A stretch of DNA of 64,000 nt from NCBI GenBank assembly GCA_037349105.1, contig JAYJMM010000119.1:6025001-6089000 (forward strand), written 5' to 3'. Below the pieces are notes generated by a model. It was given only the letters and a program-made list of their open reading frames with translations, did no database searches and had not been told where the DNA came from. A program made the translations under genes and the position numbers. The DNA comes from Limnomonas spitsbergensis (lineage: Eukaryota > Chlorophyta > Chlorophyceae > Chlamydomonadales). Below are positions 3,100 to 64,000 of the stretch, in pieces. Positions within the stretch are counted from its first letter, which is position 1, and the number at the start of each line of letters is the position of its first letter.

Positions 3100-3985
3100 T
3101 TGACAAATGAAGAGCGGCAACATGAGGAATGCCAAGCAAAGTAGAGAGGCGCCTCTAGCTGTTGCGCCACCAAGGTGCGTTTACGGCACCATCTGCCTAC
3201 ACCCGTCCTGTTAACAGCTATATGTGCAGCGCATGCTGTCGAATACAGAGATGTGGTGTGGGCCACCGGCCGCAGTACTGCCTAAACAGCAATGTGCGGT
3301 CCAACCTGCTTCAGCACGTGTAAAACAGCGGGGCTGCCAGCGTCCACCGCCAGCTGGCGGGTAATGAGATGCAGATTTAGCCATTACAACGAGACTGGTG
3401 GCAACACGTGCTCTGGCACCGGCAGCACAGCAAGACAGCCCACTCGTGGCAGCCATGGCGCCAACATGCAGCTCACAGTCAGGCAGAGCACGCACCGGAA
3501 GGTGCGACTGGAGCAGTCAGTAACTGAGTGCAGTTGAGGACCTGGCATGGGGAGTGGCTGTCCTTACACTGTCCCAAGCAAGGACTCACCCACAGCCGCT
3601 ACCTATCACGGAGGTGCGAGTGGACGACGCTTACGTGCAGGCGCAAATGGACTCGTCTGAGTGGGGGGACCCCAGGGACCCCGCTATCAAACACATGTCT
3701 GTGGCAACCTGCCGCAATTAGTTTCAGCCTACGGTGTGTGCTAGGAGCCACACCAGGAAGAAAGAGGGCGTACGCTCATGTGCGCACAGACTTCAAGTGC
3801 AACTCAGCGCCAGCGCGGCTGGCACTACAAGACGGTTTAGCGGCCAGTGAGACACGCAGCTGTTAACCGTTGTTGAGCAGGGAAAGACGGCGAGCATGTG
3901 GAAGAAGAGCTGAGGCACATGCTTGTATGCATTACCCCACTGTCCATGAGAGACTACGGGAGAGGGGTTGGCAAGGCCCCCGGAC
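3100..3985 (+). pseudogene. Decayed LINE reverse-transcriptase tail, X1
   Basis: The segment from about 3102 resembles the LINE fragment of block B (AGCGGCAACATGA, then a valley of shared codons through GTGGTGTGGGCCAC). It is interrupted by stops and frameshifts in every frame. Near its 3' end the frame around 3898 reads EEELRHMLVC, like the histidine/cysteine tail that closes many LINE ORF2 proteins. It corresponds to the region after the polymerase core and is not functional. Copies lie at 11955-12840, 23468-24353, 31065-31950 and 42575-43460. Only this copy abuts the hAT insertion. Confidence 0.55.
3978..3985. repeat. Left target-site duplication of the hAT element
   Basis: CCCCGGAC stands directly before the element and again directly after it at 5236-5243. 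The other four X copies have it once, as in GGCAAGGCCCCCGGACAGAG. Confidence 0.93.
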
Positions 3986-5235
3986 CAGGGTTACCCAGTA
4001 CGGGCCGTATTGGCCTAAAATCCCGTACCGTATCCGTACCGCACCGTACCGTTTGCAACACGGCCAAGTACGGCCGCCATTTCCTGCACTGCATGACTGC
4101 ATGGGAGCAGAAGTGCACAGACCAGTCAGACATATCAGATATTATCAGGATGGACGTAGGGGCAGCGCTGAGAACAAGTCCTAGGAAGGCAGCGTACACG
4201 GCTGATGCGCATTGGATTTTGCAGCCGTGCGTCATCATCGAAGGCTGGCCAGGCCAAGAGTGGGCGATGTAAATTTAGCGATAAGATGATCGTCGGCACT
4301 ATATGCGATTTACAAATCACCTCGCGGGCATAGCAGGACAAGTTGCGGCGTGTAAAAGGGTAAGGCGTTATTAGGACGGGTGATACATGCATACAGCGGT
4401 GATGTCGTGTGATCGTCTCCCTCGTCTGGCAAGTCCACAAAGTTCACAGTCGTGTGGACTGTGACAGGACATCAAAATCTACGTAAGCTCGCTCGCTTCC
4501 AGAGGTAAAGAGGCATTCGTTGCTCGTGAAAGTCCAAGTCTACTCCAATACTCAGTGGCAATAAGACACAACTTGGCGCCAAGTCACAATCCAAAGCTGC
4601 ATACCGTACATGGAGGGAGGAGGCTAGGAGTAGTAGGAGCATCCGTGTCCAGGACTCCCATGAGGGAGGCAAGACACAGGAGCTCCGTGTCTCCTTACGA
4701 AGTGATTTCCATGCATGCCATGTAATGATGCAACTCAGCAACTATGCAAGGTGATTCTGAGGCCTCTTGTTTCTATTGCTAGATTCATGCATGCAAAATT
4801 TCATGTGCCATGCTGGTGGGTAGCGTTTATATGGACTGACTGAATTACTGAAATGCTGAATGGCATGTTGGAACATTGTAATGGCGATGTGTGAGGAGTT
4901 TGGGATTGAATCAATGATCATATTTTCCCCTAGCATGTCAGCATGGTAAATCTGCAAGCATGCATGGAGATCCTAGGTGTTTATTTGGGGGCCATGCAAA
5001 ATTGCATGGGGGCTGTCATGCAGCCATGCAGTATGTCAGGATGTGCATGGGGTCGAACAGTCATGGGAGTGTTGCATGCATGTGTTTCTCTGTGTGGATC
5101 CTGCTGTTCAGAGCCTTGAAAATGCGAAAAAATCTTGGACCGTATTGCCCTACCGTATTGTCCCTTTTGCCCGTACCGTATCCGTACCGTACCGCACCGT
5201 ATTCCCGTACCGTGTTTCCGTACCGGGTTACCCTG
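3986..5235. mobile_element. Young non-autonomous hAT transposon, 1250 bp
   Basis: The element starts CAGGGTTACCC and ends GGGTTACCCTG, giving terminal inverted repeats. It is flanked by the 8-bp direct repeat CCCCGGAC. An 8-bp target duplication together with CAGGG ends is the signature of the hAT superfamily. The four other X copies preserve the uninterrupted site, so both borders are exact. Just inside each end are repeated GTACCG motifs, likely transposase-binding subterminal repeats. The interior is non-coding and rich in ATGCATG motifs, and no transposase is present, so mobility would need an enzyme encoded elsewhere. The insertion occurred after the unit was amplified. The element at 1860-2913 belongs to the same family. 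Confidence 0.93.
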
Positions 5236-5243
5236 CCCCGGAC
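5236..5243. repeat. Right target-site duplication of the hAT element
   Basis: Second copy of CCCCGGAC, followed by AGAGCCTC as in the empty sites. Confidence 0.93.
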
Positions 5244-7807
5244 AGAGCCTCAGACTTTCACCAGTTATCAAGGGGCAGGCATATGTGGAATGCCCTAACT
5301 TGCGAAAGAGGCAGCCCATTTATTGAGGGCTAGACTCTTGAGGAGCTGAGGCAGACCTTCCTCTCCTCTTTGGCCCTTCCCACCCCCCATGGTTTCCACC
5401 TTCTGTCTATATTTCCATCATCGCCTTCCAGACAGTTGGGGCCTCCCGCGGCCTAGCCTTCCGCGCATGTCCAAGAGGTGTTTTGTCAATTCGTCATAAA
5501 CGTCCGACAGCTCTAAACAGTATGTTGTATACCTAGTTCTGCAATATGTTATACGAGCCGTGGCCAAGATAGGGCTTCATTCAAGCCCCGCCTCTGGGAA
5601 CATGTGACAGCCATAGTACAATGCCACGCAAGCGACAGCTCATTACCATTGATTGACAGTATTAAAATGTGCTCTCAGCCATTGCCAGAATATGGGTTCG
5701 TTTGGGTGATATGGTCGTTTTTGTTCTTAGCTCGTCATGCCCATCTGGCCCTCTGGTGCAGCAAGCCTTGCAGATCAGACAGCCGGCAGAGGGCAGGTCG
5801 AAGATTGATTTCCATAATGAATGGCAATGGCTGACCAGCTGAGGAAGTCGGGCACGGAATAAAATAAGTACTGGCTTTCCCTCCCCGGATCTGCCCCAAG
5901 GGGCATATGATGGCCATATCCTAGCAAGAAAGTGCCAGCTACGGTACTCAGTTTTTACCAGAGGGTCTGTTTCATCTGATTTGTGAGAGGACGTTAAAGC
6001 CCTTGCCAGGCCATGGGCTCGTTATTCTGTGCATTTATTCGAGCATTTCTTTGCCTTTTCTCACTCAGCATTCGAAGAAGAAGGCTCACATAGAAAGCAA
6101 TTTGATCAACATCGTGCTGGCCTCTGGTACTCGCTGTTGCTGGTTTCTGAGCAAAGAGAGAACCCAACCAAACCCCTAGATAGTGCTGTGCAGTTTTGTG
6201 AAGTTTTTAAAGTCCAGCAGAGCATCACATTTGGTGCATGGGACATCGGCCCGTAAACTGGAACATGCTCTGGATACGCTATGACAGCGATCGAAAACCA
6301 GTGACCCCCCTGGGCCAGCAAACAACACACAGCCACAAGATAGTGGCGTGGGAATGAACCCTTTAGTGCAGAAGATAAGCCCCGGCCATAAAACATGACG
6401 TGGGTGAAAAACACTTTGATTGAGCGCCGCCTAGGAAAATATGAGGGAGACGGAATATGAAGCAGAGTTACGAAATGATTATGTCTTTTCATCATATACT
6501 GAAAGATAGAAAAACTGATGTTCTTCCAGAAAACAGATGCAGAAACCTCTGCATTTAGCTTGCCCCCTACTCCATTTGTGTAACATTTTAGGGCCGCATC
6601 CTTGTCCGATAGAAAATTATAGAAAATAAGGTTAAATTGAAAACGAAGGTCGGTATAAAACGGGAAGAAAATCATGTGAAGCTCATCCTCCCATAGTGCA
6701 GAGGATAAGCCTCGGTCATAAAACATGACGTGGGTGAAAAAGAGTTTGGTTGGACACCGCTTAGGGAAATTTAGAGGGGAAACAAGTATGTGTGAGTGAA
6801 ATGTGAAAAAGTCGGTAAGGAACTGTGTGATGCTTCAGTGAAAGTGGAGTGCTGAGTTGCTGTCCCTAGCCTAACCGACCAGCATGTTGTTTCATTAAGG
6901 GCAAAAGGCTCACAGTGTGGACATCAATAATGAGAACATCAGCATCCAATCTTGAAGGCTGGTAGCACCCTCTGGTTTAACTTGCCCAGGACGCGGTGGG
7001 GGTGTCCCTTAGAGTTCACAATGACTGGGAAAACGTGGCAGATCAATGCACATGCTACCATCGGCCCCCAGTAGCGCCAGCCCTTGGTAGTTACCTCTTC
7101 CCAGATAATGTCTATCCCTCAAGCATCTGCTTTCCCATCGGCTGTAAGTGGGTGGCTGTGCGTGGAGGATGGGGACTGCATGTGCGCTGGGGCTTTGCCT
7201 GTGGGCGGGGCACTGTGCATACGGGTTTGGGAGTCTGCAAATGCGGTTGGGGGCTGTCCACACAGACGCACTGCATCAATTTGTGACAAGAGTACAGGGC
7301 ATGTCTGTCTTGCCCTCGTCAGAAAAAAACTATCAGCGAAGCATTAGTCTAGCAGCATCCCCTGGCAGCATCACACAAAACATAGATTGAAGAGTCGGTC
7401 GCAGGAAGGGTGAGGCAGATGCTGTTAGAACCTTTTCGCACACCTCTCAAAGAGTGTTGCAGCCGAGATGACTAGATGTAGCCGCCATCTCTCCTGCTAT
7501 CGCCATGTGGATCACCAGCAACGTTTTGCGGAGAGAAGTTCCCGCTACGCCTGGCCATGCTTTCCCTTGGGCTCGTTTGAGGCTCTCTCTCTCTTTGATA
7601 GCTGGCATCTGGACCTCGTTGCAAGCTCGGGGCCCTTGAATGAACAGCATTGTGGACTGGCATCCTAGAGTACAGCAAGAACAGAGGGCACACCAATGCT
7701 AGTCAGTTCTGGACGTAGATGCATGCAACAGTAACAAAAATAACAATCAAAATGTATTTCCAAGCTCAGTGCGATACCTAGGAGACAATAACACTCAGTT
7801 CCCACAC

Positions 7808-9026
7808 TCACGAGTGGCTTCCTCGCAGGTGACCTCTCTTTGAGCCATAGCTAGGAAGAGGTATGCCACCAAATTCGTCCTCGTCGCCCTCAGGTTGCCC
7901 CGTCATATGAGAGCCTGGACCTTGGGAGCCCCTGTAAATCGGATTGTCCCCCATCTGTGCGGCAGGATTTATGGATCAGGTTAGGAGAACTGGCGAGGGC
8001 TTCTGTAGCCACATATATTTTCAGAGGTCTCACCTGTTTCTCAATTTGCGGACAGGTCCCATCCACATTCTGGAAGCCCAGCATCTGCCTTGGCGGCCCC
8101 AAGCACATCATGATCAGAGCAGTGACCAAGGCAGCCACCACGGGCACGGTCCTCACGATGGACGCATCGAGGCTGCGCACAACAAGGACCCATGCAGGGA
8201 TCTGAATACGCAGTCAGATCAGTCGCAGCACATACATGCTCACCTTGATGTTCCTGTCCCACTGTTGAATAAGCACATGGAGATCGGGCTGATGAACACA
8301 GCGATGAGCAAGAAAGCCGTCATGGAAATGAGGGCATGGACGTAATCTCTGACCTGCAGAGAGACAGGCAATCATATAAATGCCAGGAGACACTAATGTT
8401 GTCATTTTCAGATTTTATGGCTTATTTTTTAGAAGCCGGGGATAAGTGTGTCCATGTGGGGAAAGTGTGGGCGAGAGTTTCGAAAGTCCTCCAAGAAACC
8501 AGGAGAAATATAAAATTGAGTGTAAGATGCATGGGGTAGTCCGCATTTACCTTGAGATAGTAACGCTCATAGACACGGTCCTTGTCAAAATCTGTGGGGA
8601 GTGAGAAACACAGGGGGCCGTACAATGGCATGAGCAGGACGACGTAACTCTGCTCGTTTGAGGCTGTGTATGTGTCGGTGAAGGACGCAGCAATGACCAG
8701 AAGACAGAAGAGCACTAGTATAGCGATGATCAGAGACCTGGTGGAAGATAAAGATATAGGCACTCGTCAGCGGCATCGCCATGCACATAAGATTAAGCAA
8801 AGAATTTGCATGGTCTTATCCAAGATAAAGATTTTTGTCTTGGGTACAACTGGCCATGTGCCTGCGTGAGATCACGGGCATGATTCACATGCATTTGTTC
8901 CTGGCCTACGCACTTGCTCTGATGGTTGCAAGAGATGTCATTGTTTATGATGACGTTGCTCAAGATCCAAAAAGACGTGAGGCTGCACGTCGGGAAGTAG
9001 AACGCAACTCTCGTGACAGCGTCCAT
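7808..9026 (-). CDS. DMP: DUF679/DMP-family membrane protein, copy 1
   Basis: Five exons on the minus strand join in consistent phase: 9026-8914, 8737-8551, 8353-8244, 8172-8034 and 7954-7808, with GT-AG borders, giving 231 residues and a TGA stop. The ATG sits in a GCCATGG context and follows an in-frame stop. Four hydrophobic segments fall at about residues 6-27, 39-57, 107-128 and 143-160, the layout known for DMP proteins. The family hallmarks are the FTD after helix 2, the RDYVHA motif opening helix 3 (RDFVHA in plants), and the final helix followed by a short polar tail, here acidic (GDEDEFGG). Plant DMPs are small endomembrane proteins linked to membrane remodelling, and some to gamete fusion. 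The role here is unknown. Exon 4 uses the acceptor ending GTGCGCAG, because the one nearer exon 3 would break the frame. No defect is visible. Confidence 0.85.
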
Positions 9027-15316: not shown

Positions 15317-15879
15317 AACATTGGCCATCCCCAACTGAGTGTCTGTGACCACCCACCAGCGCTGATTCGATGTGGAAGGTGTACATGTCGGCACCGGCCT
15401 TCGCAAAGTCCTGTTGCAGGTCCAAGAGCGGAGGGGCAGCCGACAGGGAGGGGTTAGGGTTGTCGGGGAAGGATGTAGGGTTTATAATTAAGGGCATGGC
15501 GCTCAGAGCATGGTGCCTCCTAGTTCACACTTTCCGCATGTATGGTATTGTTTTCATTTCTTGATGTGATATATCATGTCAGGTGCTAGCCTTAGATTCC
15601 AGAACTAAGCATGTGCATTACATTTCATGCATCGAGCTCCCTGTGTTGGTCAGAAGAATACAAATAACTATGATGAGCAGGGTCTCCTCCAACACACGGC
15701 ACACAACTGTCCCCACCGATCCGTCGAAAAACAGCTTGTTGACAGCGAGCCCTTGACCCTGAACCCATGAACCCAAGACCTTGCCTGGGACATAGGGGCA
15801 CAGTGCCTAATTGTGTATAACACTCATATTTTGCCTTCCAAACGCCATGCACACCACATGCCCAGATCTCATCAGGCCC

Positions 15880-16250
15880 GGATCTTACGTGTCTCTGAAG
15901 ATCCATGCATACAAATCTGGCCCAGATCGCAGCAGGTCAGGATCCTACTTGCCTCATAAGATCCATACCCATAGATCTGGCTCGGATCGTAGCAGGTCAG
16001 GATCCTTCTTGCGACCTAAGAACTACACCCATTGATCTGGCTTCGATCGCATCAGATCTGGATCCTACTTGCCTCCTAAGATCTCTACCCATGAATCAGG
16101 CCCACATGTTATCAGATCCGGATCCTACCAGCCTCCCATGAATCCGTGCTCATAGATCAGGCCCAGATCACATCAGATCCGGATCCTGCCTGCCTGCCTC
16201 CACAGATCCAAGCACATAGATCTGGCCCAGATCCCATCATAACTGTATTC
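15880..16250. repeat. About 60-bp array in the epimerase intron, at the 5' splice site
   Basis: Some six degenerate units containing GATCTGGCCCAGATC and GGATCCTACTTGCC run up to the donor of the exon ending at 16254. On the minus strand the units contain GGCAAGTAGGATCC, which resembles the donor region GTGCAGGTAGAATAC. Unit 2 copy at 34990-35360. Confidence 0.75.
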
Positions 16251-16524
16251 TACCTGCACCCACTGCTTAGGGTTGGTGACCATGAGGTGGCAGTCGAAAA
16301 AAGCGTATGAGTGCTTCCTCAGACACCCAATGATGGGCGCGCCCATGGTCAGGTTGGGGACGAAGTTTCCATCCTGGCAGGTGGGTGGTAGGAGGAGCAG
16401 AGGGGTTGCAGGCATGCATGCACACTCTGGGGAAATAATAGATGTGGCAGTGCCTGGTTACACCCAGAGACCAGATTGAAACATCCACGCATATTAGGTT
16501 ATCTACTCCATTCCTTCACACTGC

Positions 16525-17193: not shown

Positions 17194-17282
17194 AACAGCA
17201 ATAGCAGCAACAGTAACAGCAACAGCAGCAACAGTAACTACAACAAAAAACAACAAAAACAACAGCAACAACAGCAACAATA
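17194..17282. repeat. CAG/CAA trinucleotide-like tract next to a splice donor
   Basis: Imperfect CAGCAA, CAGTAA and CAACAA triplets. On the transcribed minus strand this is a TTG/CTG tract beginning about 14 bases after the donor of the exon ending at 17296. Unit 2 copy at 36304-36392. Confidence 0.8.
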
Positions 17283-17396: not shown

Positions 17397-17662
17397 GTGG
17401 AGGAAGGGGGGAAAGGGGGGGGGTGGAGGGGGGGGGGCAGGGGCGGGAGTGGAGGGGGGGGGGGGCAGGGGCGGGAGTGGAGGGGGGGGGGGCAGGGGCG
17501 GGTGTGGAGGGGGGGGGGGGGCAGGGGCGGGAGTGGAGGGGGGGGGGGGGCAGGGGCGGGAGTGGAGGGGGGGGGGGGGCAGGGGCGGGAGTGGAGGGGG
17601 GGGGCAGGGGCGGGAGTGGAGGGGGGGGGGCAGGGGCGGGAGTGGACGGGGGGGGAGCCACA
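17397..17662. repeat. G-rich minisatellite beside an epimerase 3' splice site
   Basis: About eight units of roughly 25-31 bp, each with a G run followed by CAGGGGCGGGAGTGGA. The plus strand has many long G tracts and strong G-quadruplex potential. On the minus strand it forms a C-rich tract directly before the acceptor of the exon starting at 17386. G-run lengths differ from the unit 2 copy at 36507-36769. Long proline/arginine- or glycine-rich open frames through it are artefacts. Confidence 0.9.
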
Positions 17663-51091: not shown

Positions 51092-54000
51092 TTAAGACCG
51101 CATAATCATGACGGCACCCCTGGCCTGCCCCAGCAAGGAGATGAGCCCCCGGCTGCCAGACACTGACTTGCAGCCCTGGGGGAGCTGCAGCGCCGTCATC
51201 TCAAACTCCCCAGACTCTACCGCCTTGTTCGCTTTACCGGTGAAGGAATGGCCTTCTAGTTCCAGCTGGTGGGAGAGGAAGGCAGGCAGGCGGGTGCGGC
51301 AGTGAGGAGATGCCAGAAACATCAGGCCATGGGCTACACAGCCTTAGGTAGGGCCTTATAAAACATCCACCAACAAATATCTACCAACAAATGATTTCAG
51401 AACATGTCAAGCACGGCAAACCGGAAGAAAGGAAAAGGTGCAATGAACTCCCCGCCTGTCCCGCACCTCCTGGATGTCTCCGAGGTACTTTTCATATGCC
51501 ACTCGGCGGAAGTCTGCCATCAGGTGTCTCTCCCTCTGTGTCGAGGTGTTCACAGAGCACACCTGGGAGCAGGGCGGTGTTTCTTTTTTCGGCGACAAGT
51601 TAAACTTCGGCAGGCCCTGCCCAGCAGCCGCCAAAGGCCACATTTTGGGACCACAGCTGGACCGGCCTGCAGCTGGTAAAGAAAGCAGCAAGGCTGGCCA
51701 GCGGCCGGAGTGTGGCTGACAAGTAGCTGAGACATGAAAAAATAAACACTGGTGTAGGGTGGCCTTCCGTTTCAGGGTGATAAACCATCAGCAATCGTAA
51801 CAAGAAGGAACTGGGAATAACTAACCCCAGTGCTGCATTTGGACGAGCAAGGTGCAGCCACAACGCAGCTTGAACAACCTCAGTAGGAGCAAAAAAGCTC
51901 AAGTTGTCATCACATGAATCCATGCCATAATGTCGGGAAAGCAGCGGTCCTCCAAAACATTCATGTACCGTACGCAGCCATCCTTTGAGCAAGACAAACC
52001 TAAGACCTGAACCCTAGGGCAGAACCTCCTACCGTTATTTTCAGAGGTCCTCCTTTTCTCTGGTTCGTGTTTCGTCAAGACAAAGCAACAATTGTGCCGC
52101 GCACCTGCCCCAGCGTGAGCTTGGTTCCTTTCTTGTGCTTGAGCAGCTTGTCACATACAAACTCCAGCAACGGCAGACACCACGCCTCCATCATGAGCAG
52201 CAGCCGCAGCCGGCCGCGGTTGTACAAGGAGTTGACGGCGTCGGCTGCTTTTGGCGTAATGACGATGATGGGGATCTGACACACCAGAAGGGGCGGGGGA
52301 CAGCAGGGTGGTTGGGGGCATGATCGGAATGAATTCAGAACGGGGAGGGACAACCAACAGCAGCAGAAGCAGCATCAGGGGCGGGGATATCGGGTTAAGA
52401 GTTTAGAGGGAGGGGTGTGTGACCTGGGAAGGGACAAAGCAATGAGCTAAAACCTAGACTTGCCCATGCAAAATATGTCCCTCAGGCGAGCCGCCCTCCA
52501 TCCACGTCCCAGGTTGCAACACTCTTCCTTGAGTAACAGATTGAGTCGTGGTGGGAGTTAAGTGGCGCCACTCGGGGCCGCGTTCCAATTAGGAGTTGGC
52601 ATCCCAACAGGCACTTGGCTCCCTTGAAACTCCTCCCTCCCCGCGGATCCACCTTCTTCTGTCCTCCCCAAGGAAGTACCCCCGAAACAACCTGAAATCT
52701 GCCCCCTGTTCAGGACTGCCACTCCAGCGGATCCGAATCCAGTGGATCCGAAACCATACCTGAATCTGCCCCCTATTCAGGACTGCCACCCCAGTGGAGC
52801 CGAATCCAGTGGATCAGAAACCATACCTGAATCTGCCCCCTGTTCAGGACTGCCACTCCAGCGGATCCGAATCCAGTGGATCAGAAACCACACCTGAAAT
52901 CTGCCCCCTGTTCAGGACTGCCACCCCAGTGGAACCGAATCCAGTGGATCAGAAACCATACCTGAATCTGCCCCCTGTTCAGGACTGCCACCCCAGTGGA
53001 TCCCAGTTCGTTATTAATGGATCAGTGACCACACTCCACCGCCTGAGTGTCCTAGCATCAAAGCATTACATGGATTTCTTGTTACCTGAACCATAGCCCC
53101 CCCGTTCCAGGGTATAGAGTCCCATGCTCCCCACCTCCTCTCTACCATGTCTCCCTGACCTAACGGCAAGGCTCAGGGTTTAAGAGGGTTCAGGCTTTTG
53201 GGTTGTGGGCTTAGGGTTTACAAATTACCTGAAGCCTGTTGATGATGGCAAGCCCGACAGACCCCAGCTTGGTCTCCGTGCTGGCGAGGTTGTTGGACGG
53301 GACGACAGCGGTGGTGACGTCGTTGTCCTCAATGTAGCGATGCATGGCATCCAGCAACGTAGCACCACGGACCTACAGCATACAGCGTCAAATGTCGTGC
53401 CAGATGTTGCGGACTTGTGGTGTTTCTTAGGATGCCAGATGCTTCAGCGGAGGGTGACTTTCACAAAGTATGAACAACATAGGATTCACGTTAGATCTAC
53501 ACTAATCAGGGGGATCCTCAACCCTAAAACGTACACCCAGCTGTGCAAGCACCCTGTCCACTTACCCCTCCACAACAAAGCAGCAGCTTTTAAGCAAATA
53601 CGATTGAGGCATTTCGTCCTCATCACAAGACCCTATCCATCTCTACCCACCATTTACCAAGTCACAAACACCACTCACCCACAACACCCACTCACCACAC
53701 CACTCACTCACCCACACCACTCACTCACCCACAACACTCACTCACCACACCACTCACTCACTCACCACACCACACACTCACCCACACCACGCACTCACCC
53801 ACACCACTCACTCACTCACCACACCACTCACTCACCCACAACACTCACTCACCACACCACTCACTCACCCACACCACTCACTCACCCACAACACTCACTC
53901 ACCACACCACTAACTCACACACACCACTCACTCACTACACCACTCACTCACCCACACCACTCACTCACTCACCCACACCACTCACTCACCCACAACACTC

Positions 54001-57000
54001 ACTCACCACAACACTCACTCACCCACACCACTCACTCACCCACAACACTCACTCACCACACCACTAACTCACACACACCACTCACTCACACACACCACTC
54101 ACTCATTCACCACACCACTCACTCACCCACACCACTCACTCACCACACCACTAACTAACACACACCACTCACTCACCCACAACACTCACTCACCACACCA
54201 CTCACTCACCCACACCACTCACTCACCCACAACACTCACTCACCCACAACACTCACTCACCACACCACTCACTCACTCACCACACCACTCACTCACCACA
54301 CCACTCACCCACACCACTCACTCACCACACCACACCAATAACTCACACACACCACTCACTCACTCACCACACCACTCACTCACCCACACCACTCACTCAC
54401 CCACACCACTCACTCACCACACCACTAACTCACACACACCACTCACTCACCACACCACTCACTCACCCACACCACTCACTCACCCACACCACTCACTCAC
54501 CACACCACTCACTCACCCACACCACTCACTCACCCACAACACTCACTCACCACACCACTAACCCACACACACCACTCACTCACTCACCACACCACTCACT
54601 CACCCACACCACTCACTCACCCACACCACTCACTCACCCACACCACTCACTCACCACACCACTAACTCACACACACCACTCACTCACAACAATCACTCAC
54701 TCACCCACATCACTCACTCACCACACCACTAACTCACACACACCACTCACTCACTCACCACACCACTCACTCACCCACACCACTCACGCACCCACACCAC
54801 TCACTCACCACATCACTAACTCACACACACCACTAACTCACACACACCACTCACTCACTCACCCACACCACTCACTCACCACACCACTCACTCACCACAC
54901 CACTAACTCACACACACCACTCACTCACCCACCCACACCACTCACTCACCCACACCACTCACCCACCCACCCACACCACTCACTCACCGACACCACTAAC
55001 TCACCCACACCACTCACCCACCCACCCACACCACTCACCCACCCACACCACACACCCACCCACCCATACCACTCACTCACCGACACCACTCACTCACCCA
55101 CACCACTCACTCACTCACTCACTCACACCACTCACTCACCCACACCACTCACCCACCACCTGCACCACTCACCTGCACATCCATGGTCATGTCCACAGGC
55201 CCACAGGGTCGCTTGGGTCCCAGTCGTGCCATATACCTGTCCATGAGGGCATGCCCTCCCGGCAGCTGAGACTCGTCCCCCACAAACGTCACGAGGCGCA
55301 CCAGATCCCTGCAGAAAATGCAAATAGGAAGAAACAATGAGCGGAGGAAAATAATACGCCACCTGCATGTAGGCGCGGAAGGCAGGTACGTCTACTCTAT
55401 TTCGTCCGCAAAGGAATCATCTGATCCATGAAGAGAAAATACAGGTAAAAATCGGAATACAAAGAAATATAAATACTTATAAACAAATAGGAAGAAACAA
55501 GGAGCGGAGGGAATAAATACGCCACCCTCACATATACGTGGTAGGCAGCTTCATCTCCTACTTCCCTGCAGTAACATTGTGTGATCCATGCAGGTCAATG
55601 TTCCAGATCTACATGGATCTGCTGCTGGATCCACATTGGATCTTCCAGCTCACCTCCCTGGTCGAGACAGTCCCAGGGCCATGCGGACGCCTATCAGGCA
55701 GCTGAGAGACTCGTCCAGAAATACCACAAACGTGCTGCCATTGGGGTCCTTGCGGTGCATCTGATGATGAGGCGGGAGAAACAGGGTTGGAGGATGTTAG
55801 AATTGGGAACAGACAGGAAAAGGAAAATAATGACATGAGCAGGGTTGAAATATATAGCTACACATGACCTCTGATCATCAAAAGACAACGAAAGCAAGTT
55901 AAAGGATTTGTAGGCACACTTTTTGGCCAGCGGCCCCTTTAGGAGATCCCTCATAACAATCAGTCACCAATCATTGGAGAAGAATGCGTCTGTGACCCAT
56001 CAAGCTCTCACCGCACGTGGTACAAGCAAGTTATAATAACAATCAGACACCATCCATCAAGCTCACCGTGCGCGGTACAAGCAAGTGATGATAACAATCG
56101 GACACTCATCAATGAAAAGCGTGGTCCATCAAGTTCACCGTGCGTGGTACGAGCAAGTGATAATAACAATTGGACACCCATCAATGAAAAGCGTCTGTGG
56201 TCCGTCAAGCTCTCACCGCACGTGGCACGATGATCTGCGGTACTTTCAGATCTAGGGATTCCCGATCAGGATCGTACTGGCCCTGCTGGTCGTGTAGCTG
56301 TTGAAGCTGTTGCTGTCGCGTCTGCTGTTGCGCCAGCTGCCTCTTCTTGAGGATGGACGCCGTGATGTTGAGCATGCTGAGCATGTCCGTGAACCTTCTG
56401 TCGGTGTTCTGCTGCAGGGCTACATCCAGCAGCAGGTGCAGGTCGTCCGTGCACGACATCAAGGGGGGCGCCTGATCCACCTGCAAAAAACGGAAATTTT
56501 CGATTTTGAAAATCAAATTTAAAAATCCAAAATTCGGTATGTCTTAGGGACAGAGCAGTGTTGACTGTTTGTAAAACGTCAAAGGTTTACCAACACATCG
56601 AAGCCTCGGTGTGATTGTTTGTCATCCGTTTTTGTACCTGTACCGCCGCCAGGGCTGCTCCTGGGATGTGGCTGAGGTCCCCCATGTCGATGCTGACGTG
56701 CAGCAGGTTGCCGCGGACGGTGAGTTTGGGCTTGAAGTGCTGGTTGCTGGACAGGAGGCGCTGCAGGCTGGGGAGGTGGAACAAGTACCTGGGATGTGTT
56801 GGAGGGGGCCATTGGCAAAAAGGGGAGTAATGCTAGGAAATTAAAGATGCATGGGGGGTGGGAGGGGGGCACATACTTAAATAGAGAGTGGCTGAGTCAC
56901 AGAAACAATCAAATTTGAAAGCTAAGTGTAAATTCGTGGTCCTTTGGGCAAGGTTCTACAGCTCAGAAATCAATTCTGAGCGTCTATTTTTGCACCCAGT

Positions 57001-60000
57001 GTGGACCGTGCATACATATACTATCAGCAAGGTCAATGTTCCGAATTTTCGTTCCAGGAGCTATTTTTTGCTTCCCGGCAGTCTTGCCTCGAAGTTCTTG
57101 CTCAGTCAGGAACCGTCCGAATCATGGAAAACGGTGATTCATGTGTCTATGAAACAATGGAGGCATGTGTGGGAGCAAAGTTCTCCTCAGAGCAGCCCCC
57201 GCCCCTCACCTCTGCAGCCCGACAGCCAGCTGCCCCTTGCAGCCTGCCTTGGCCTGGTCCACAGCCTGGCCCATAAGATCGCTGGTGAGCTGGGAAGCCA
57301 TCAGCTGCGGCGGGTGGAGTGCAGGTGCAGAGGCCATCATAAAAGGGCAGAGGCTGTCAGAAAAGGTTTGCAGAGGCCGACAGAAAAGGTTTGCAGAGGT
57401 TGTGAAGACAAGACGGAGAGGCTGTTCATCCACACTTTCGGAGGACATATCCATTATCCAGTTAACGGTACGCGCCTTGGAACAAGGTCAAATGAGCAAT
57501 GGCTGAAGTAATCAGATCTTAAAACGAAGGTGGAGTGCTGAGCACGCCTATACAAATACCCAATGGGGTTGGGTGAGACAAAAATCACACAATCCAGTTG
57601 CCGCCAACACCTCTGACAAGATTTGCGCAAGATTTGCGGCATACGCTCCTCTGACGGCGTTCGTGATGACAAAACGACCTCTGTGCCATGCACCTCAATA
57701 CACTGGCACCGTCTTCCAAAATCTACGCCTCTGTTTCTAAAACCTTGAAGCCCAAACCCTTCCTAAACCTACGCCCCAGTGCCCTATGTGTTTATTCCTT
57801 TACCTCTATGTTGACCCCGCCTGCCTTCTGCGAGAGGATGATGCTCCCGTACGACCTCGCGACCGCCATATTTTCCGTCATGAACACCTGCAGCACCATG
57901 CAGGGCAGGACAGCAGGGCACACACTCATGAGATGCAGGGCAGGGCAGGGCAGGGCAGGACAGGGCAGCAGTGACAAGACAAGACGCCCTAAACTAAGTT
58001 TAGGGTTTAGGGTTAAGCAGGGCAGCTAAACTGCTTAAGTGCTAAACTAAGTAGGGCAGCAGTGAGGTTACTGAAGAGAGGCGGGGCAGCGCAGCAGTGA
58101 ACAAAATGATGAGACACCCTGAGGCATGTATACGGCCGGAGGCAAATGCTCAGAGGCGAATTGAACACCCTGAGGCAGCCAGGTGCCAGAGAAGGCGGGA
58201 AATCCATGCAAACCAGTGCTGTGCGATTGTGCCGTAATTCAGAAATTGTTTGAGTAATTACGGTTCCTTTTCGTTCAAGAACCTGAATTTGTCCTGAAAT
58301 TAAGGTCACCCTCTGGTCACCCTCTGAGACACTCCTTTGGTCACTATTTTGGTCACCCCATTTGTCACTCCCTTGATCACTCTTTCTGTCACCCCTTGGT
58401 CACACCTGTGAGATCATGGATGCCTTGGTCTTGGCCTTCATGTACATGGCCTTCCGCAGGAACTCTAGATCCAACAACCCCTCACTCGTGCTGCACAAGA
58501 CCAGGTCCCGCGCCCGACAACAAGACATCCACTGCACCCCCCGCTTTATAAGCAGCTGCAGACAGGACAGAAGTTGACAGGGGGTGGGGGGCGCAGGAGT
58601 TGGCAGGGGGTGAGGGGTGCAGGACTTGACAGGGGGTGGGGGTGGGGAGTGCAGGAATTGATAGGGGATGGAGGGTGCAGGAGTTGACAAGGGGTGGGGT
58701 GTTGTGTACGAGGGTGCTTTGGGTCATGAGGAATGTTGGGTTCATTGCACTCCCTAAGTGTTCCCCGTAGATAGATGCAGAAGCAGGCATTGCAGGAAGA
58801 ATGCAGATCGGGCATGAGGTTGATCCCCCCGTGCTTGGGGGGCCCTCTACCTTCTGGGACCACAAATTGAGCTCTTGGAGGCATCCCACCTGGACCCCCC
58901 CTTAAGGGGGGGCAAAGGGGATCTCAAGCAAACCCTCTGGCCAGGGCGTTCAAACGAGGCTCACTGTGCCTAATGCTTTGGGAGCTGCAGAAGACTAGTA
59001 TGGGCACCGAGGACATCTCCTCACCCTTAATAGATTCCACAAGGAGGCTGCTCGGTGGACGCCTTGAAAACACAGGCTTGCCCCTGAAACGCGATCGCTC
59101 AAACCAGTGTCCCTACTCCCCTCCATCTTCCATTAAATGAAAGTACGAATTTGTGTCACAAGTTATCCTTCCTGAGTGCATTTGCAGTCACCCTTTCTCT
59201 CCTGCCCTGAAGTCCCATGCACCAGGGGTCTTTGGCGCATCTCTGCTCCCTCCCCTCCTCCTTTCCAGAGTGCCCTCCCCAGTTGATCCCTCCCTCCCCA
59301 ACTTCCTTTCCAGAGTGCCCTCCCCAGGTGATCCCTCCCTCCCCACCTTCCTTTAAAGAGTGCCCTCCCCAGTTGATCCCTCCCTCCCCAGCTTCCTTTC
59401 CTGAGAGCCCTCCCCACTCCCCAGTTGATCCCTCCCTCCCCAACTTCCCTTCCTGAGTGCCCTCCCCAGTTGATCCCTCCCTCCCCAGCTTCCTTTCCAG
59501 AGTGCCCTCCCCAGTGGATCCCTCCCTCCCCAACTTCCCTTCCTGAGTGCCCTCCCCAGTTGATCCCTCCCTCCCCAGCTTCCTTTCCAGAGTGCCCTCC
59601 CCAGTTGATCCCTCCCTCCCCAGCTTCCCTTCCAGAGTGCCCTCCCCAGTTGATCCCTCCCTCCCCAGCTTCCTTTCCTGAGAGCTCTCCCCAGTTGATC
59701 CCTCCCTCCCCAACTTCCCTTCCTGAGTGCCCTCCCCAGGTGATCCCTCCCTCCCCAACCTCCTTTCCTGAGTGCCCTCCCCAGTTGATCCCTCCCTCCC
59801 CAACTTCCTTGCCAGAGTGCCCTCCCCAGTTGATCACCTCAATGGGCGTGAGCTGCAGCATCTTAACCAGCCCATCCGCCCCCAGCACAAAGGCATCTGG
59901 GTACCAATTGAGCTGCATGGCAGAGATGCCGGTGCCAGTGGCCTCGGCCGCGTCGGTCTCCAGCAGGTCGGGGCTGGTGAAGCGCTGCTCCCGTTGATTG

Positions 60001-63000
60001 TATTGGTAGCCGCCGCGCCGCGACTGTGGGATGATGATGACGTTTGCCCTCTTAAAACCTGAGGGGTGCAGGTGTTTCGAATGAGTGCTATTACGGTCTG
60101 TGTCACGTTTCCAAGATGCAGGCGAGCTACATTTAGATAGTTCAGTACTTTTTTAAATTGTGAGTTTGAGGGTGGGTATTCAAGGGTCGGGTCAACGGCC
60201 AGATGGGTGCTAGGCTGCAAGGTAGCTGTGTCCATATATACTCCTGTTTAATACCATAGATTGCTCCCAGCTTTAATGCCGTATTGTTTTGCTGCTTGTT
60301 AATGTTGGTGAAAAAATGCTTCCTCTGCCGTAAATGACTCGGTACAGAATATGAAGGTACCCTGCCGCGTATCGACACATCCATCCTCCATAAACCACTC
60401 AGCAATGCCTAGCCAGACCATTCAGTGCTGCATCAGTTCTCTGCCTCAGATGCCCATATCTTGTAATTTATGCCACCAATCTCAGGAGGGAAGAGAAGCT
60501 GGGATCACTCTCAAGTCAAGTAGGAGGAGAAGGGCATGCACAAGTTTTGAGGGGGCACAATGCCAATGGGCAGGGCATGGACCAGGGTTGATGCTTCCAT
60601 TAGGCAGAAAATGCCTCCCCCCCCCCTACCCCCTTCTCTTACCATAAAACTGATGGTCCAGCAGCATGCGTGTGCATGCCTCCTGCTGCTCATCGTTGAT
60701 GTGGAGAATCACGTGCGTGCTGGAGGGGGCCTCCGCACCGGACATGTCGGTCAGCGCTAGGGCCAGCTGCATGCATATAGCATCAAATAATGATTACAAA
60801 ATGAAATGAAATACGAAGCAAGAATAAGTCGGCAGAGCAGCATGCGGCGCATATCCGTAAACCCTCACGTCCTGAACCCTCTTGTCCTGAACCCTCACGT
60901 CCTGAACCCTCACGTCCTGAACCCTCACGTCCTTAACCCTCACGTCCTGAACCCTTACGTCCTGAACCCTCACATCCTGAACCCTCACGTCCTGAACCCT
61001 CACGTCCTGAACCCTCACGTCCTGAACCCTCACATCCTGAACCCTCACGTCCCTGAACCCTCACAACCTGAACCCTCACGTCCTGAACCCTCACATCCTG
61101 AACCCTCACGTCCTGAACCCTCATGTCCTGAACCCTCATGTCCTGAACCCTCACGCCCTGAACCCTCACGTCCTCAACCCTCACGTCCTGAACCCTCACA
61201 TCCAGAACCCTCACGTCCCTGAACCCTCGCGTCCTGAACCCTCACGTCCTGAACCCTTGCGTCCTGAACCCCCACGTTCCTGAACCCTCACATCCTGAAC
61301 ACTCACGTCCCTGAAGCCTCACGTCCCTGAACCCTCACGTCCTGAACCCTCACGTCCTGAAGCCTCACGTCCTGAAGCCTCACGTCCTGAAGCCTCACGT
61401 CCTGAACCCTCACGTCCTGAACCCCCACGTCCTGAAGCCTCACGTCTTGAACCCTGACGTCCTGAACCCTCACATCCCTGAACCCTCACGTCCTGAACCC
61501 TCACGTCCTGAACCCTCACGTCCTGAACCCTCATGTCCTGGACCTTCACGTCCTGAAACCTCACATCCTGAACCCTCACGTCCCTGAACCCTCACGGCCT
61601 GAACCCTCACATCCTGAACCGTCACGTCCTGAACCCTCACGTCCTGAACCCTCATGTCCTGAACCCTCACGTCCTGAACCCTCACATCCTGAACCCTCAA
61701 GTCCTGAACCCTCAAGTCCTGAACCCTCACGTCCTGAACCCTCACGTCCTGAACCCTCACGTCCTGAAGCCTCACGTCCTTAACCCTCACGTCCTGAACC
61801 CTCACGTCCTGAACCCTCATGTCCTGAACCCTCACGTCCCTGAACCCTCAAGTCCTGAACCCTCACGTCCTAAACCCTCACGTCCCTGAACCCTCACGTC
61901 CTGAACCCTCACGTCCTGAACCCTCACGTCCTGAACCCTCATGTCCTGAACCCTCACGTCCTGAACCTTCACGTCCTGTACCCTCACGTCCTGAACCCTC
62001 ACGTCCTGAACCCTCTTGTCCTGAACCCTCTTGTCCTGAACCCTCATGTCCTGAACCCTCATGTCCTGAACCCTCACGTCCTGAACCCTCACGTCCTGAA
62101 CCCTCACGTCCTGAACCCTCACGTCCTGAACCCTCACGTCCTGAACCCTCACGTCCTGAACCTTCACGTCCTGAACCCAAGTCATGGGTGTTAGTTTGCA
62201 TTGCATGACTTACCTGTGCCATGACGCGGGACTGACAGCTGTGCTTGGGCGTCTTGGAGTCCACCTCATGGTGTCCCACAAGCAGGCCAGGTCGGAAACG
62301 AGCGACCAGGTCATAGGGATCTGATGTCCAGAGGTCCTGTGGGGGGAAGAGTGACCTATGTGAGAGAGTTGCCAGAGTGGAAGGAGGAGGACCCATGTAA
62401 AAGTGTGGCATATGCAAGGGAGTGATTCGGGTTGAAAGAGTATCCCATATGGATGGGTAATGACTTATGAGTGATGACACGGGAGGAAAAGTTACATGCG
62501 GGGAGGGTTGCACAGGTGAAACAGTGGTGGAGTAGGAGGTGGACACGGGGGAGTGCGAGACATGGGTAGATGAGTGACATTGGTGACTGATATGATTGAA
62601 AGAGTGACCAGGGTGGGTGGTAGTCTCGGGCGGAAGAGAGACGTGAGTAGAGGAGTGACCTGGGGAGGAGTGGCCCAGGTGAAGGAGCGAGCCGGTGAAA
62701 GGTACACTGGTGTGAAAGAGTGACCCAGGTAGGAGTGCATCATCCCTGGTGGGAAGGGCGGACGCCGCTGTATTATTTACACAGCTATTTTAACCCGGGA
62801 CAACCTGCTTTGATGGAGACCTGGTGATTGATGGTCATGGTTCAAGTGTAGCTTCATCCCATGGCTATACGTGATTTCCTCAACTCCCAATGACCCGTAG
62901 GAGTGGAAAACGACATTTTCTTTGCTCCCCCCTCTCTGGTTTCCAAACCTGTTTTGTTGTATCCAGATCTTCCTCCCTCCCTATGGGTTTTTTTCAAACC

Positions 63001-63936
63001 TGTTTTCCTGTGTCCAGATCTTCCTCCCCTCTCTCTGGTCTCCCAACCTGTTTTGTTGTATCCAGCGTGTCAGTGTTGTTCGAGGTGCGAACATAGTCCT
63101 CGCCGGCCAGGATCCAAAACGCCAAGTGTCCGTTGGCCGCACAGTAGCTGGCTGCTGACTTCTTGTGCCAAATGTTGTCGCTGTCTGATATCGATGAGGA
63201 TTCCTGCAGGAGGACACGAGCAGACATTTATAGTGGACAGTTTTAGTGGACATGCATAGTGGACATGCATAGTGGTCATAATACTGCATGCTGAAGTAAG
63301 TGACTACATCTTGTGACATTTCAACAAATACGACAGCTGCTTTTTCATAGTACAATCTACGAAACTGGTGCAACTGCACCACAGTGCACGCTTCGTTACA
63401 GGAATGTACCGCAATGATGTATGTACCGGTGCATGATGTACCGCATGGAGGAGGTGCATGAGACAGGAGAGGGGCTCTGCCAGCATCCTTTGATCTGCAT
63501 TCCCAGAATGGGACGGTGGTGTAGCTCATGACAGTGACATGGGTCTAGACCAGCCTGCCGTGCCAGTCAGTGATTTGCTGCTGCACATCCACTTTTTTTT
63601 TCTTCTCGCCATGTCCATCCCATGCTTCCGCCAAAATGGGCGGCTTCCTTAAGCCACGCACTTGTTTGCATATTTATTGCGTACCGTACCGGTATTGAAT
63701 ACCGGTACTTACCGGTAATGCACATTGCGTATTCATTGCGTGTTGCGTATTTATCGCGCATAGCGTATTTACTGCGCATTCATTGCGTATTTAATTCCTT
63801 ACTCTCATCTGTGCCAGGGATGCTTCAGCGGACAGGGGCACCACCCTGGGCTTCTGCCACTGCCCGGCCTGAGCATCCGCCCAGGCCGTGTTCACGCGGT
63901 TCGAAAACATGGAGAGGATTGCACTCGTGATTGGAC
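51092..63936 (-). CDS. Large 16-exon gene with C-terminal universal-stress-like domain (5' end outside window)
   Basis: Sixteen minus-strand exons keep one frame across GT-AG introns: 63936-63803, 63203-63048, 62336-62214, 60766-60643, 60058-59838, 58555-58406, 57887-57804, 57304-57210, 56788-56638, 56480-56217, 55760-55654, 55308-55173, 53372-53229, 52275-52105, 51562-51467 and 51265-51092. Exon lengths and phases agree at every joint, giving 775 codons and a stop. The first exon listed starts at an acceptor with two bases of a split codon, so more lies beyond the window. Exons 4-7 (HVILHIND, GFKRANVIIIPQ, YGSIILSQKAGG) have alternating alpha/beta character that could be a nucleotidyltransferase-like fold, but I do not recognise it firmly. 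Exon 10 has a glutamine-rich, probably coiled stretch (about residues 457-480). Exons 11-14 resemble a universal stress protein domain. No signal peptide or clear transmembrane segment is visible. Transcript evidence is needed for the function and the 5' end. Confidence 0.82.
52690..53000. repeat. 67-bp minisatellite in intron 13
   Basis: About five units with CAGGACTGCC landmarks at 52711, 52778, 52845, 52913 and 52980, plus GGATCCGAATCCAGTGGATC. It sits mid-intron, more than 200 bp from the donor. Confidence 0.9.
53667..55172. repeat. CACTCACTCACC(CACAC) microsatellite filling intron 12
   Basis: About 1.5 kb of CACTCACTCACC and CCACACCACTCACTCA variants. On the transcribed minus strand it is GTGAGTGAGTGG, and it begins at the donor of the exon ending at 55173 (CAG then GTGAGTGGTGC). 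Every unit therefore carries a GTGAGT donor-like hexamer. Array imperfections increase toward the donor-proximal end, where GGGTGGGTGG variants appear. Confidence 0.93.
55318..55555. repeat. Direct duplication of about 65 bp, 166 bp apart, in intron 11
   Basis: AGGAAGAAACAATGAGCGG... at about 55327 recurs as AGGAAGAAACAAGGAGCGG... at about 55490. Both are followed by an A/T-rich stretch, ATACGCCACC and a GGCAGG ending. Confidence 0.75.
55996..56236. repeat. Exon-end plus 5' splice-site repeat in intron 10
   Basis: The sequence around the exon 10 donor (minus strand CCACGTGCG then GTGAGAGCTTGA) recurs three more times inside the intron, at about 56000, 56057 and 56128, spaced roughly 57-77 bp. 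All keep GTGAG or GTGAA after a CACG/GCG exon-like end. The spacer units share GATAATAACAAT and CATCAATGAAAAGCG. Confidence 0.88.
57305..57415. repeat. Repeat of about 24 bp beside the exon 8 acceptor
   Basis: AAAAGGTTTGCAGAGGC/TTG units (about four, two well conserved) lie in intron 7 just before the acceptor of the exon starting at 57304. Confidence 0.7.
57899..57970. repeat. GGGCA pentamer tract, intron 6
   Basis: Iterated GCAGGGCAGGGCAG near the acceptor of the exon starting at 57887. Telomere-like AGTTTAGGGTTTAGGGTTAA follows at about 57995-58015. Confidence 0.8.
58305..58405. repeat. GTGACC array starting at the exon 6 donor
   Basis: On the minus strand the intron starts GTGTGACCAAGGGGTGAC and continues with about seven GTGACC/GTGATC/GTGTCT units every 15 bases or so. 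The array begins at the donor itself. Confidence 0.85.
58575..58705. repeat. 30-bp G-rich repeat in intron 5, near the exon 6 acceptor
   Basis: Four to five units of GGGTGCAGGAGTTGACAGGGGGTG. On the minus strand it makes a C/A-rich tract shortly before the acceptor of the exon starting at 58555. Confidence 0.85.
59265..59836. repeat. 45-bp minisatellite starting at the exon 5 donor
   Basis: About 12-13 units of GAGTGCCCTCCCCAGTTGATCCCTCCCTCCC.., exact period 45 (landmarks 59268, 59313, 59358). The last unit runs into the donor: minus strand GAG then GTGATCAACTGGGG, against GGGATCAACTGGGG in the repeats. The period is a multiple of three, so spurious long frames stay open on both strands. Confidence 0.93.
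60867..62178. repeat. 15-bp satellite CCCTCACGTCCTGAA in intron 3
   Basis: Roughly 85 copies of a 15-mer with scattered variants (CATCC, TTGTCC, GAAGCC) occupy most of the intron between exons 3 and 4. The array ends about 36 bases from the exon 3 donor. The open frames of repeating VQDVR or GSGREGS pentapeptides are artefacts of the 15-base period. Confidence 0.95.
62345..62740. repeat. Degenerate GAGTGACC/AGGTGAA repeats, intron 2
   Basis: Loose repetition of GAGTGAC, CCCAGGTG and GGAGTG motifs at irregular spacing of about 30-40 bases, beside the acceptor of the exon starting at 62336. Confidence 0.5.
62938..63066. repeat. Triplicated exon 2 end plus donor, intron 2
   Basis: The last 18 coding bases of exon 2 (minus strand CTGGATACAACAAAACAG) and the following GTTGGG recur twice inside the intron. 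One copy reads CTGGACACAGGAAAACAG then GTTTG; the other reads CTGGATACAACAAAACAG then GTTTGG. Spacing is about 55-60 bp. AGATCTTCCTCCC links the units. Confidence 0.9.
63665..63796. repeat. TTGCGTATTTA repeats beside the exon 1 donor
   Basis: About eight variants of ATTGCGTATTTA or CGCATTCATTGCG run up to within 8 bases of the donor of the exon ending at 63803. They are preceded at 63680-63716 by an inverted GTACCG/CGGTAC cluster that resembles the subterminal motif of the hAT elements. A separate ATGCATAGTGGAC repeat (about 15 bp) lies at 63231-63278. Confidence 0.7.
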
Positions 63937-64000
63937 CTGGAGGCAGAGGGGGAGAGGATTGCACTTATGATTGGACCTGGAGGCAGAGGGGGAGAGGATT
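63911..64000. repeat. 40-bp tandem repeat across a 3' splice site, window edge
   Basis: GGAGAGGATTGCAC..GATTGGACCTGGAGGCAGAG repeats with exact period 40 (GGAGAGGATT at 63911, 63951 and 63991). The unit includes the acceptor of the first exon listed for the large gene (63936/63937) and its first coding bases. It runs off the window. Confidence 0.9.

Follow-up and report, generated by a model that had tools for sequence, protein, structure and literature searches.

Why should tandem repeat arrays within introns begin exactly at a splice site? The question is raised by a 64,000-nucleotide stretch of the genome of the green alga Limnomonas spitsbergensis (hereafter the window; G000:C119:6025001-6089000; genome 260 Mb, 124 contigs), in which a large gene carries arrays that start at or near the donors of several introns. 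A sequence-only reading of the window had proposed that splice junctions seed duplication, that repeated donors are selected, and that duplication across AGGT junctions could give rise to new introns. As described below, array edges gather at donors and acceptors alike in other genes of the same genome, and the density of arrays does not. The arrays are probably ordinary intronic minisatellites, which originate in local tandem duplications and expand until they are halted by exons.

The gene in question was rebuilt from the window as follows.

51092..63936, minus strand: large gene, exons E0-E15 with 15 GT-AG introns; the 5' end of the gene lies past the model; conserved protein, function unassigned.

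GT-AG splicing of the 16 exons across the 15 inferred introns gave a single 775-residue frame. A database search gave four homologues of the protein, and the three that carry a name belong to Chlamydomonas eustigma and Haematococcus lacustris, as would suit a chlorophycean green alga; a Pfam search of the protein gave no family at E 0.01. The C. eustigma protein is 40% identical to the product of the large gene and aligns to it gap-free over the donors of introns 3, 5 and 6; over the donor of intron 12, the alignment has a one-residue gap, two residues downstream. Distances from arrays to donors were measured for the nearest array of each intron with Tandem Repeats Finder (TRF) at a score of 50 on the plus strand.

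63723..63780, minus strand: array of intron 1 (63204-63802), 18-bp unit, 22 nt from the donor.
63223-63279, minus strand: second array of intron 1, 19 nt from the acceptor.
62925..63065, minus strand: array of intron 2 (62337-63047), donor distance 0, 18 nt within the exon, with a unit that straddles the donor.
60860..62178, minus strand: array of intron 3 (60767-62213), 15-bp unit, 87 copies, 35 nt from the donor and 93 nt from the acceptor.
59246..59840, minus strand: donor array of intron 5 (58556-59837), 45-bp unit, donor distance 0, 3 nt into the exon.
58568..58699, minus strand: acceptor-side array of intron 5, 12 nt from the acceptor; the unit is G-rich on the plus strand, i.e., C-rich on the sense strand.
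58304..58403, minus strand: array of intron 6 (57888-58405), 0-2 nt from the donor.
55997..56194, minus strand: array of intron 10 (55761-56216), 55-72-bp unit, 22 nt from the donor by TRF.
53672..55178, minus strand: array of intron 12 (53373-55172), 17-bp GTGAGTG-type unit, donor distance 0, 6 nt into the exon.

The intron numbering of the sequence-only reading agrees with the rebuilt gene. Its donor-proximal arrays were confirmed at introns 2, 5, 6 and 12 (0-2 nt) and, at the wider distance of 35 nt, at intron 3, but not by TRF at introns 1 and 10 (22 nt each); by eye, the donor of intron 10 is crossed by one copy of the unit, with a gap, so that the sequence-only reading is right there. 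The arrays of introns 7, 13 and 15 are distant from the donor (404, 225 and 74 nt). Arrays said to abut acceptors stand 12, 19 and 21 nt away in this gene (introns 5, 1 and 7). To judge from the TRF consensus units, the units of the window's introns look unrelated, as had been claimed; introners (transposon-like introns) would share one repeat family across many introns. Of the 10 introns with arrays, 4 had one no more than 10 nt from the donor, as compared with 0.42 expected from random placement within the intron (P = 4e-4). On the sense strand the count was 2 of 9, because TRF at a score of 50 missed the intron 2 array and began the intron 12 array 13 nt from the donor. The large gene had been chosen for its striking look, and therefore an independent test was required.

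For this purpose, kinesin and chaperonin profiles were searched against the whole genome, and 39 stretches, 294,150 bp in total, were picked before their repeats were inspected; 30 of them surround kinesin matches and 9 chaperonin matches. Splice sites in these stretches were predicted with a purpose-written gene finder, which was trained on the large gene and the profile matches. When applied to the large gene, on which it had been trained, it placed all 16 exon starts and 15 of the 16 exon ends correctly. The final run overpredicted, with 24 exons for this 16-exon gene, the surplus being small exons, and a low penalty led to false small exons. Introns were counted when their flanking exons had a coding score >10 or homology, and the remaining predicted introns were discarded ahead of counting; 219 introns from 417 predicted exons were obtained. 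Arrays were present in 73 of the 219, and an array was called abutting when its edge was within 10 nt of the splice site. Exon-derived copies within an array may look coding, as at sense positions 8093-8600 of locus L018, and can be mis-called as exons by the gene finder.

The array edges were concentrated at the junctions of these other genes, well above uniform placement. Of the 73 introns, 21 had an abutting array at the donor and 18 at the acceptor, as compared with 3.2 expected at each end for uniform placement within the intron (P = 7e-13 for donors and 4e-10 for acceptors). In these stretches, arrays abut acceptors nearly as often as donors, and an effect specific to donors is not supported. 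In the 26 introns with homology on both sides, the counts were 9 donors and 7 acceptors (expected 1.1 and 1.2), and a second batch of stretches gave 11 and 6 of 31 (expected 1.1 each). The pile-up was robust for TRF scores from 30 to 120, and TRF on the other strand gave 21 donors and 15 acceptors of 71. The edge effect extends beyond the large gene, without donor specificity.

Containment within the intron is the wrong null model, because arrays may span junctions or be cut off at exons. A founder model that allows an exon overlap of up to one unit expected 10.05 abutting arrays per end. In an exon-barrier model, arrays were placed regardless of exons and then trimmed at the exon. This model predicted 14.9-16.8 abutting arrays at donors, where 21 were seen (P = 0.054-0.148), and 15.1-16.9 at acceptors, where 18 were seen (P = 0.24-0.43). 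The coverage by arrays did not peak at the junctions at any of seven positions across the first 60 nt from either end; it was 8-12% on the donor side and 3-15% on the acceptor side, while the mean was 22%. TRF covered 3.0% of 55,690 bp of reliable exons, as compared with 22.1% of 116,574 bp of introns. The edge pile-up in combination with the lack of a coverage peak indicates that the edges are special, but the density is not.

Many of the junction-abutting arrays straddle the splice site. Of 21 independent arrays at donors, 12 extend over 7-43 nt of exon, as compared with 0-3 nt in the other 9; at acceptors, 7 of the 18 independent arrays reach 13-72 nt and 11 do not enter the exon. The overlap with the exon was shorter than one unit in all 39. 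In L039, the 59-bp unit, present in 7.7 copies, repeats 43 nt of exon sequence whose last codons specify FAYGQT, and in L018 the repeated unit includes the exon end encoding IKRLKTLLA. In L019, the exon-side donor joins INTGNSAR to STGATAMN, and 39 donor copies of approximately equal score then follow. We take these peptide stretches to be conserved kinesin motifs. On the sequence, the anatomy of the three loci is what a junction-spanning tandem duplication would leave if the exon-side site is still used.

The L019 intron (C108, sense 4299-5646) holds 39 copies of an approximately 27-bp unit, in each of which the donor scores within 1 bit of the inferred one. In L006 (C103, sense 3906-8406), 4,044 nt of a 4.5-kb predicted kinesin intron form one merged array with a 58-bp unit, which runs 13 nt into the downstream exon.

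If the arrays are minisatellites bounded by exons, short tandem duplications would occur anywhere in introns, including over a donor or an acceptor. A duplication spanning a junction would survive because the mRNA is unaltered as long as the exon-side splice site stays in use, and it would deposit copies of the exon end in the intron. The arrays would then expand and turn over fast, and would end up covering a large share of some introns. Selection would remove growth into coding sequence, so that edges would gather at exon borders on both sides, and the inner copies would co-evolve and diverge from the exon copy, which is under constraint, so that the edge becomes sharp. The composition of the seed would persist in each array, which would therefore be G-rich at the start of the intron and C-rich at the end.

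Several observations weigh against this explanation. The founder model alone was exceeded at both ends (P = 4e-4 for donors and 0.007 for acceptors). A mild excess of donors over the barrier model remained (21 as compared with 14.9, P = 0.054), the homology subset had 9 of 26 donors where that model gives 4.7 (P = 0.03), and the second batch of stretches leaned toward donors. The barrier model takes its array lengths from the observed arrays, without a mutation model, and the sites are predicted rather than RNA-derived, in a sample of two protein families. In an earlier run, an array of the L006 intron at 607-767 extended 374 nt into the preceding exon, which would count against a strict barrier if it is real; this intron is not represented in the final set of donor-abutting arrays.

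In their class and behavior, the arrays resemble known minisatellites. They are built from head-to-tail units of roughly 6 to 100+ bp, as in intronic minisatellites (variable number tandem repeats, VNTRs), and they share the strand asymmetry of that class, since the mean |GC skew| was 0.47 in 66 internal arrays and 0.25 in 3,150 non-array 40-nt windows. Paralogous introns showed the rapid gain and loss typical of minisatellites: among 18 pairs, which share members (L031 introns are in four) and are not all independent, an array was present in at least one member in 11, in both in 2, and in one alone in 9. The introns of L008 and L014, whose flanking exons are 92 and 87% identical, carry related units that end 12 and 18 nt before the acceptor, but the start of the array is 164 nt away from the donor in one of the two introns and 38 nt away in the other. 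The acceptor-side edge has stayed close to the exon, and the opposite edge differs by more than 100 nt.

The arrays are also polar. On the sense strand, G exceeds C in 21 of 21 independent donor-abutting arrays, and C exceeds G in 18 of 18 acceptor-abutting ones. Internal arrays, with those of the large gene included, share this polarity along the intron (Spearman -0.53, n = 66). Outside the arrays, introns of the 39 loci and the large gene likewise change from G to C from start to end on the sense strand (Spearman -0.20, 3,150 windows). Because 131 array-free introns already show the same tendency (first 40 nt with G>C in 74%, last 40 nt with C>G in 85%), the sign of the skew is mostly inherited from the seed. 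At donors, the arrays carry extra skew beyond these array-free ends (Mann-Whitney P = 7e-7; 0.018 for acceptors).

This skew bears on the proposal that the mutation rate to tandem duplications is truly raised at splice junctions (a hot spot), through R-loops or replication slippage at skewed sequence. The excess of 21 and 18 over the 10.05 expected from neutral junction-spanning founding would agree with it, as would the uniform sign of the skew at either end. Internal arrays prefer skewed sequence, with a relative rate of 5.4 for the top skew bin, and skew alone predicts 1.15-1.42 times the interior rate in donor zones and 1.44-1.86 times in acceptor zones. However, a hot spot is difficult to reconcile with a coverage that has no junction peak, the barrier model approaches the observed counts, and most of the skew sign is already present in array-free introns. 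R-loops may play a part, but the acceptor-abutting arrays are C-rich on the sense strand and almost equally frequent. We consider a hot spot unlikely, and the seeding of duplication by junctions, as suggested in the sequence-only reading, is not supported. Selection for repeated donors that make splicing robust, which the same reading had offered, is far less probable still. L019 would suit this idea, with GT kept in 39 of 39 copies and a mean copy score of 11.1 against 11.2 for the used donor, and L029 keeps GT in 54 of 55 copies, but in a weaker context (4.0 against 10.3). Pooled over the arrays, GT was kept in 109 of 143 copies, 93 of which belong to L019 and L029, and 3 of 23 arrays had no junction copies. 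Across 20 arrays, including one of the large gene, the inner donor was kept no better than the rest of the unit (GT retention 0.55, against 0.55 expected from the other unit columns). Furthermore, 13 of the 21 independent donor-abutting arrays have no other GT within 1 bit of the used one, the donor array of intron 5 in the large gene keeps the donor GT in 0 of 11 inner junction copies, and 11 of the 21 unit lengths are not multiples of three, so that splicing from an inner donor would cause a frameshift.

Two further explanations concern both ends of the intron. Arrays might be retained at the two ends because pairing between them brings the splice sites together. The G-rich 5' ends and C-rich 3' ends, with internal arrays of the same polarity, would permit such pairing, and in the set of 189 introns the 80-nt segments at the two ends gave -39.75 kcal/mol as compared with -38.82 for mismatched ends (sd 0.46, about two shuffle sd, where sd is the standard deviation). 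The 81 array-bearing introns showed no such difference (-41.70 and -41.91 kcal/mol), and arrays occurred at both ends together in 3 of 82 introns; we regard this explanation as extremely improbable. The birth of introns by tandem duplication of an AGGT-containing exon segment has an equally slight chance. A single candidate among 211 introns, L018 8093-8497, has an 18-nt direct repeat between its donor and acceptor zones, where shuffles expect 0.00. This intron contains a further copy of the exon segment, and the exon predicted downstream of it may therefore be such a copy called in error, which makes the case doubtful. In general, donor and acceptor zones were as alike as shuffled pairs (mean 12.18 against 12.10 of 40, n = 234) and not copies of one exon segment, and the suggestion that new introns arise here by AGGT duplication found no other example. 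Avoidance of early acceptors was considered as well, since inner AG retention was 0.34 where 0.59 was expected (16 arrays, 53 of 154 copies). It is not claimed, because 11 of the 18 arrays at acceptors go no further than the splice site, so that by definition similarity is lost there. Among the 7 arrays that span the acceptor, AG was retained in no copies in 2, in 22 of 67 copies in 1, and in all copies in 4. Taken together, the sequence-only reading is partly supported: its observation is largely right for the large gene, and its interpretation mostly fails.

Repeats near the ends of introns have been described in other systems. Repeats are biased to intron ends in 31 plants and algae, especially in C. 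reinhardtii and Volvox (PMC3887541). Those green algae resemble the present case in having their top repeat density in introns and an enrichment near intron-exon junctions at both ends. There, however, introns are divided into tenths of their length and the peaks fall at 10-19% and 80-89%, whereas here the edges lie within 10 nt and many units straddle the junction. Human duplicated genes with internal tandem repeats (PMC2812944) also have repeats over exon-intron boundaries, but those alter splicing or form novel introns, whereas the mRNA is predicted to be unchanged here. The human ABCA7 VNTR that reportedly affects splicing (PMC5954066) is likewise an intronic minisatellite linked to splicing, but represents a single disease locus. 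Tandem duplication over exon-intron borders is shared with the Rogers intron-gain model, as described in PMC4974935, and with dual-specific splice sites in tandem repeats (PMC10809524). Unlike in these intron-gain systems, existing introns seem to have been lengthened here, with no sign of creation in the sample. No report of arrays that meet donors with nucleotide precision turned up in our literature search, although one may exist. The present analysis contributes the sharpness of the edges, to the nucleotide, at donors and acceptors, the description of straddling units that carry copies of exon sequence, and the account of exons as barriers.

These observations suggest that repeats beginning exactly at splice sites need no junction-specific machinery, provided that arrays can span junctions and that exons block them. 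Counting edges is misleading by itself, and the profile of coverage should be tested as well. The arrays may also serve as natural tests of splice-site choice. Upstream donors are favored under exon definition, and downstream donors under intron definition (PMC9225289). The arrays with intact donors in this alga imply the choice of the upstream donor. If the exon-side donor is used, it is possible, although we would put it at somewhat below even, that exon context or the order of transcription decides, in opposition to a rule of the donor nearest the acceptor, and that this choice lets junction-spanning arrays persist. Introns with one inferred donor followed by up to 39 near-identical copies would be useful for studying exon- or intron-defined choice among identical donors.

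The window also contains a ribulose-phosphate 3-epimerase gene (PF00834, E 6.7e-31), both visible introns of which had been said to carry arrays at the donor.

15860..16257, minus strand: epimerase array, 60-bp unit, overlapping by 4 nt the exon whose end is 16254.
17194..17280, minus strand: epimerase array with a short unit, 15 nt from the donor; the last exon base is 17296.

The first of these abuts its donor as claimed, but the second does not. Positions 1-50000 of the window contain tandem segments of about 19.1 kb (5236-30714 and 24346-49794 match at 99.8%), with nested shorter duplications, and the segments bear copies of the epimerase exons. They represent either a recent amplification or an assembly artefact. 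The duplicated segments were tried as a mutation clock and rejected: the first 20 kb differ by four small indels alone, all of which lie inside a G-run array at 17454-17567 and may be homopolymer sequencing errors. Further along the same segments, 24 substitutions and 2 indels were found.

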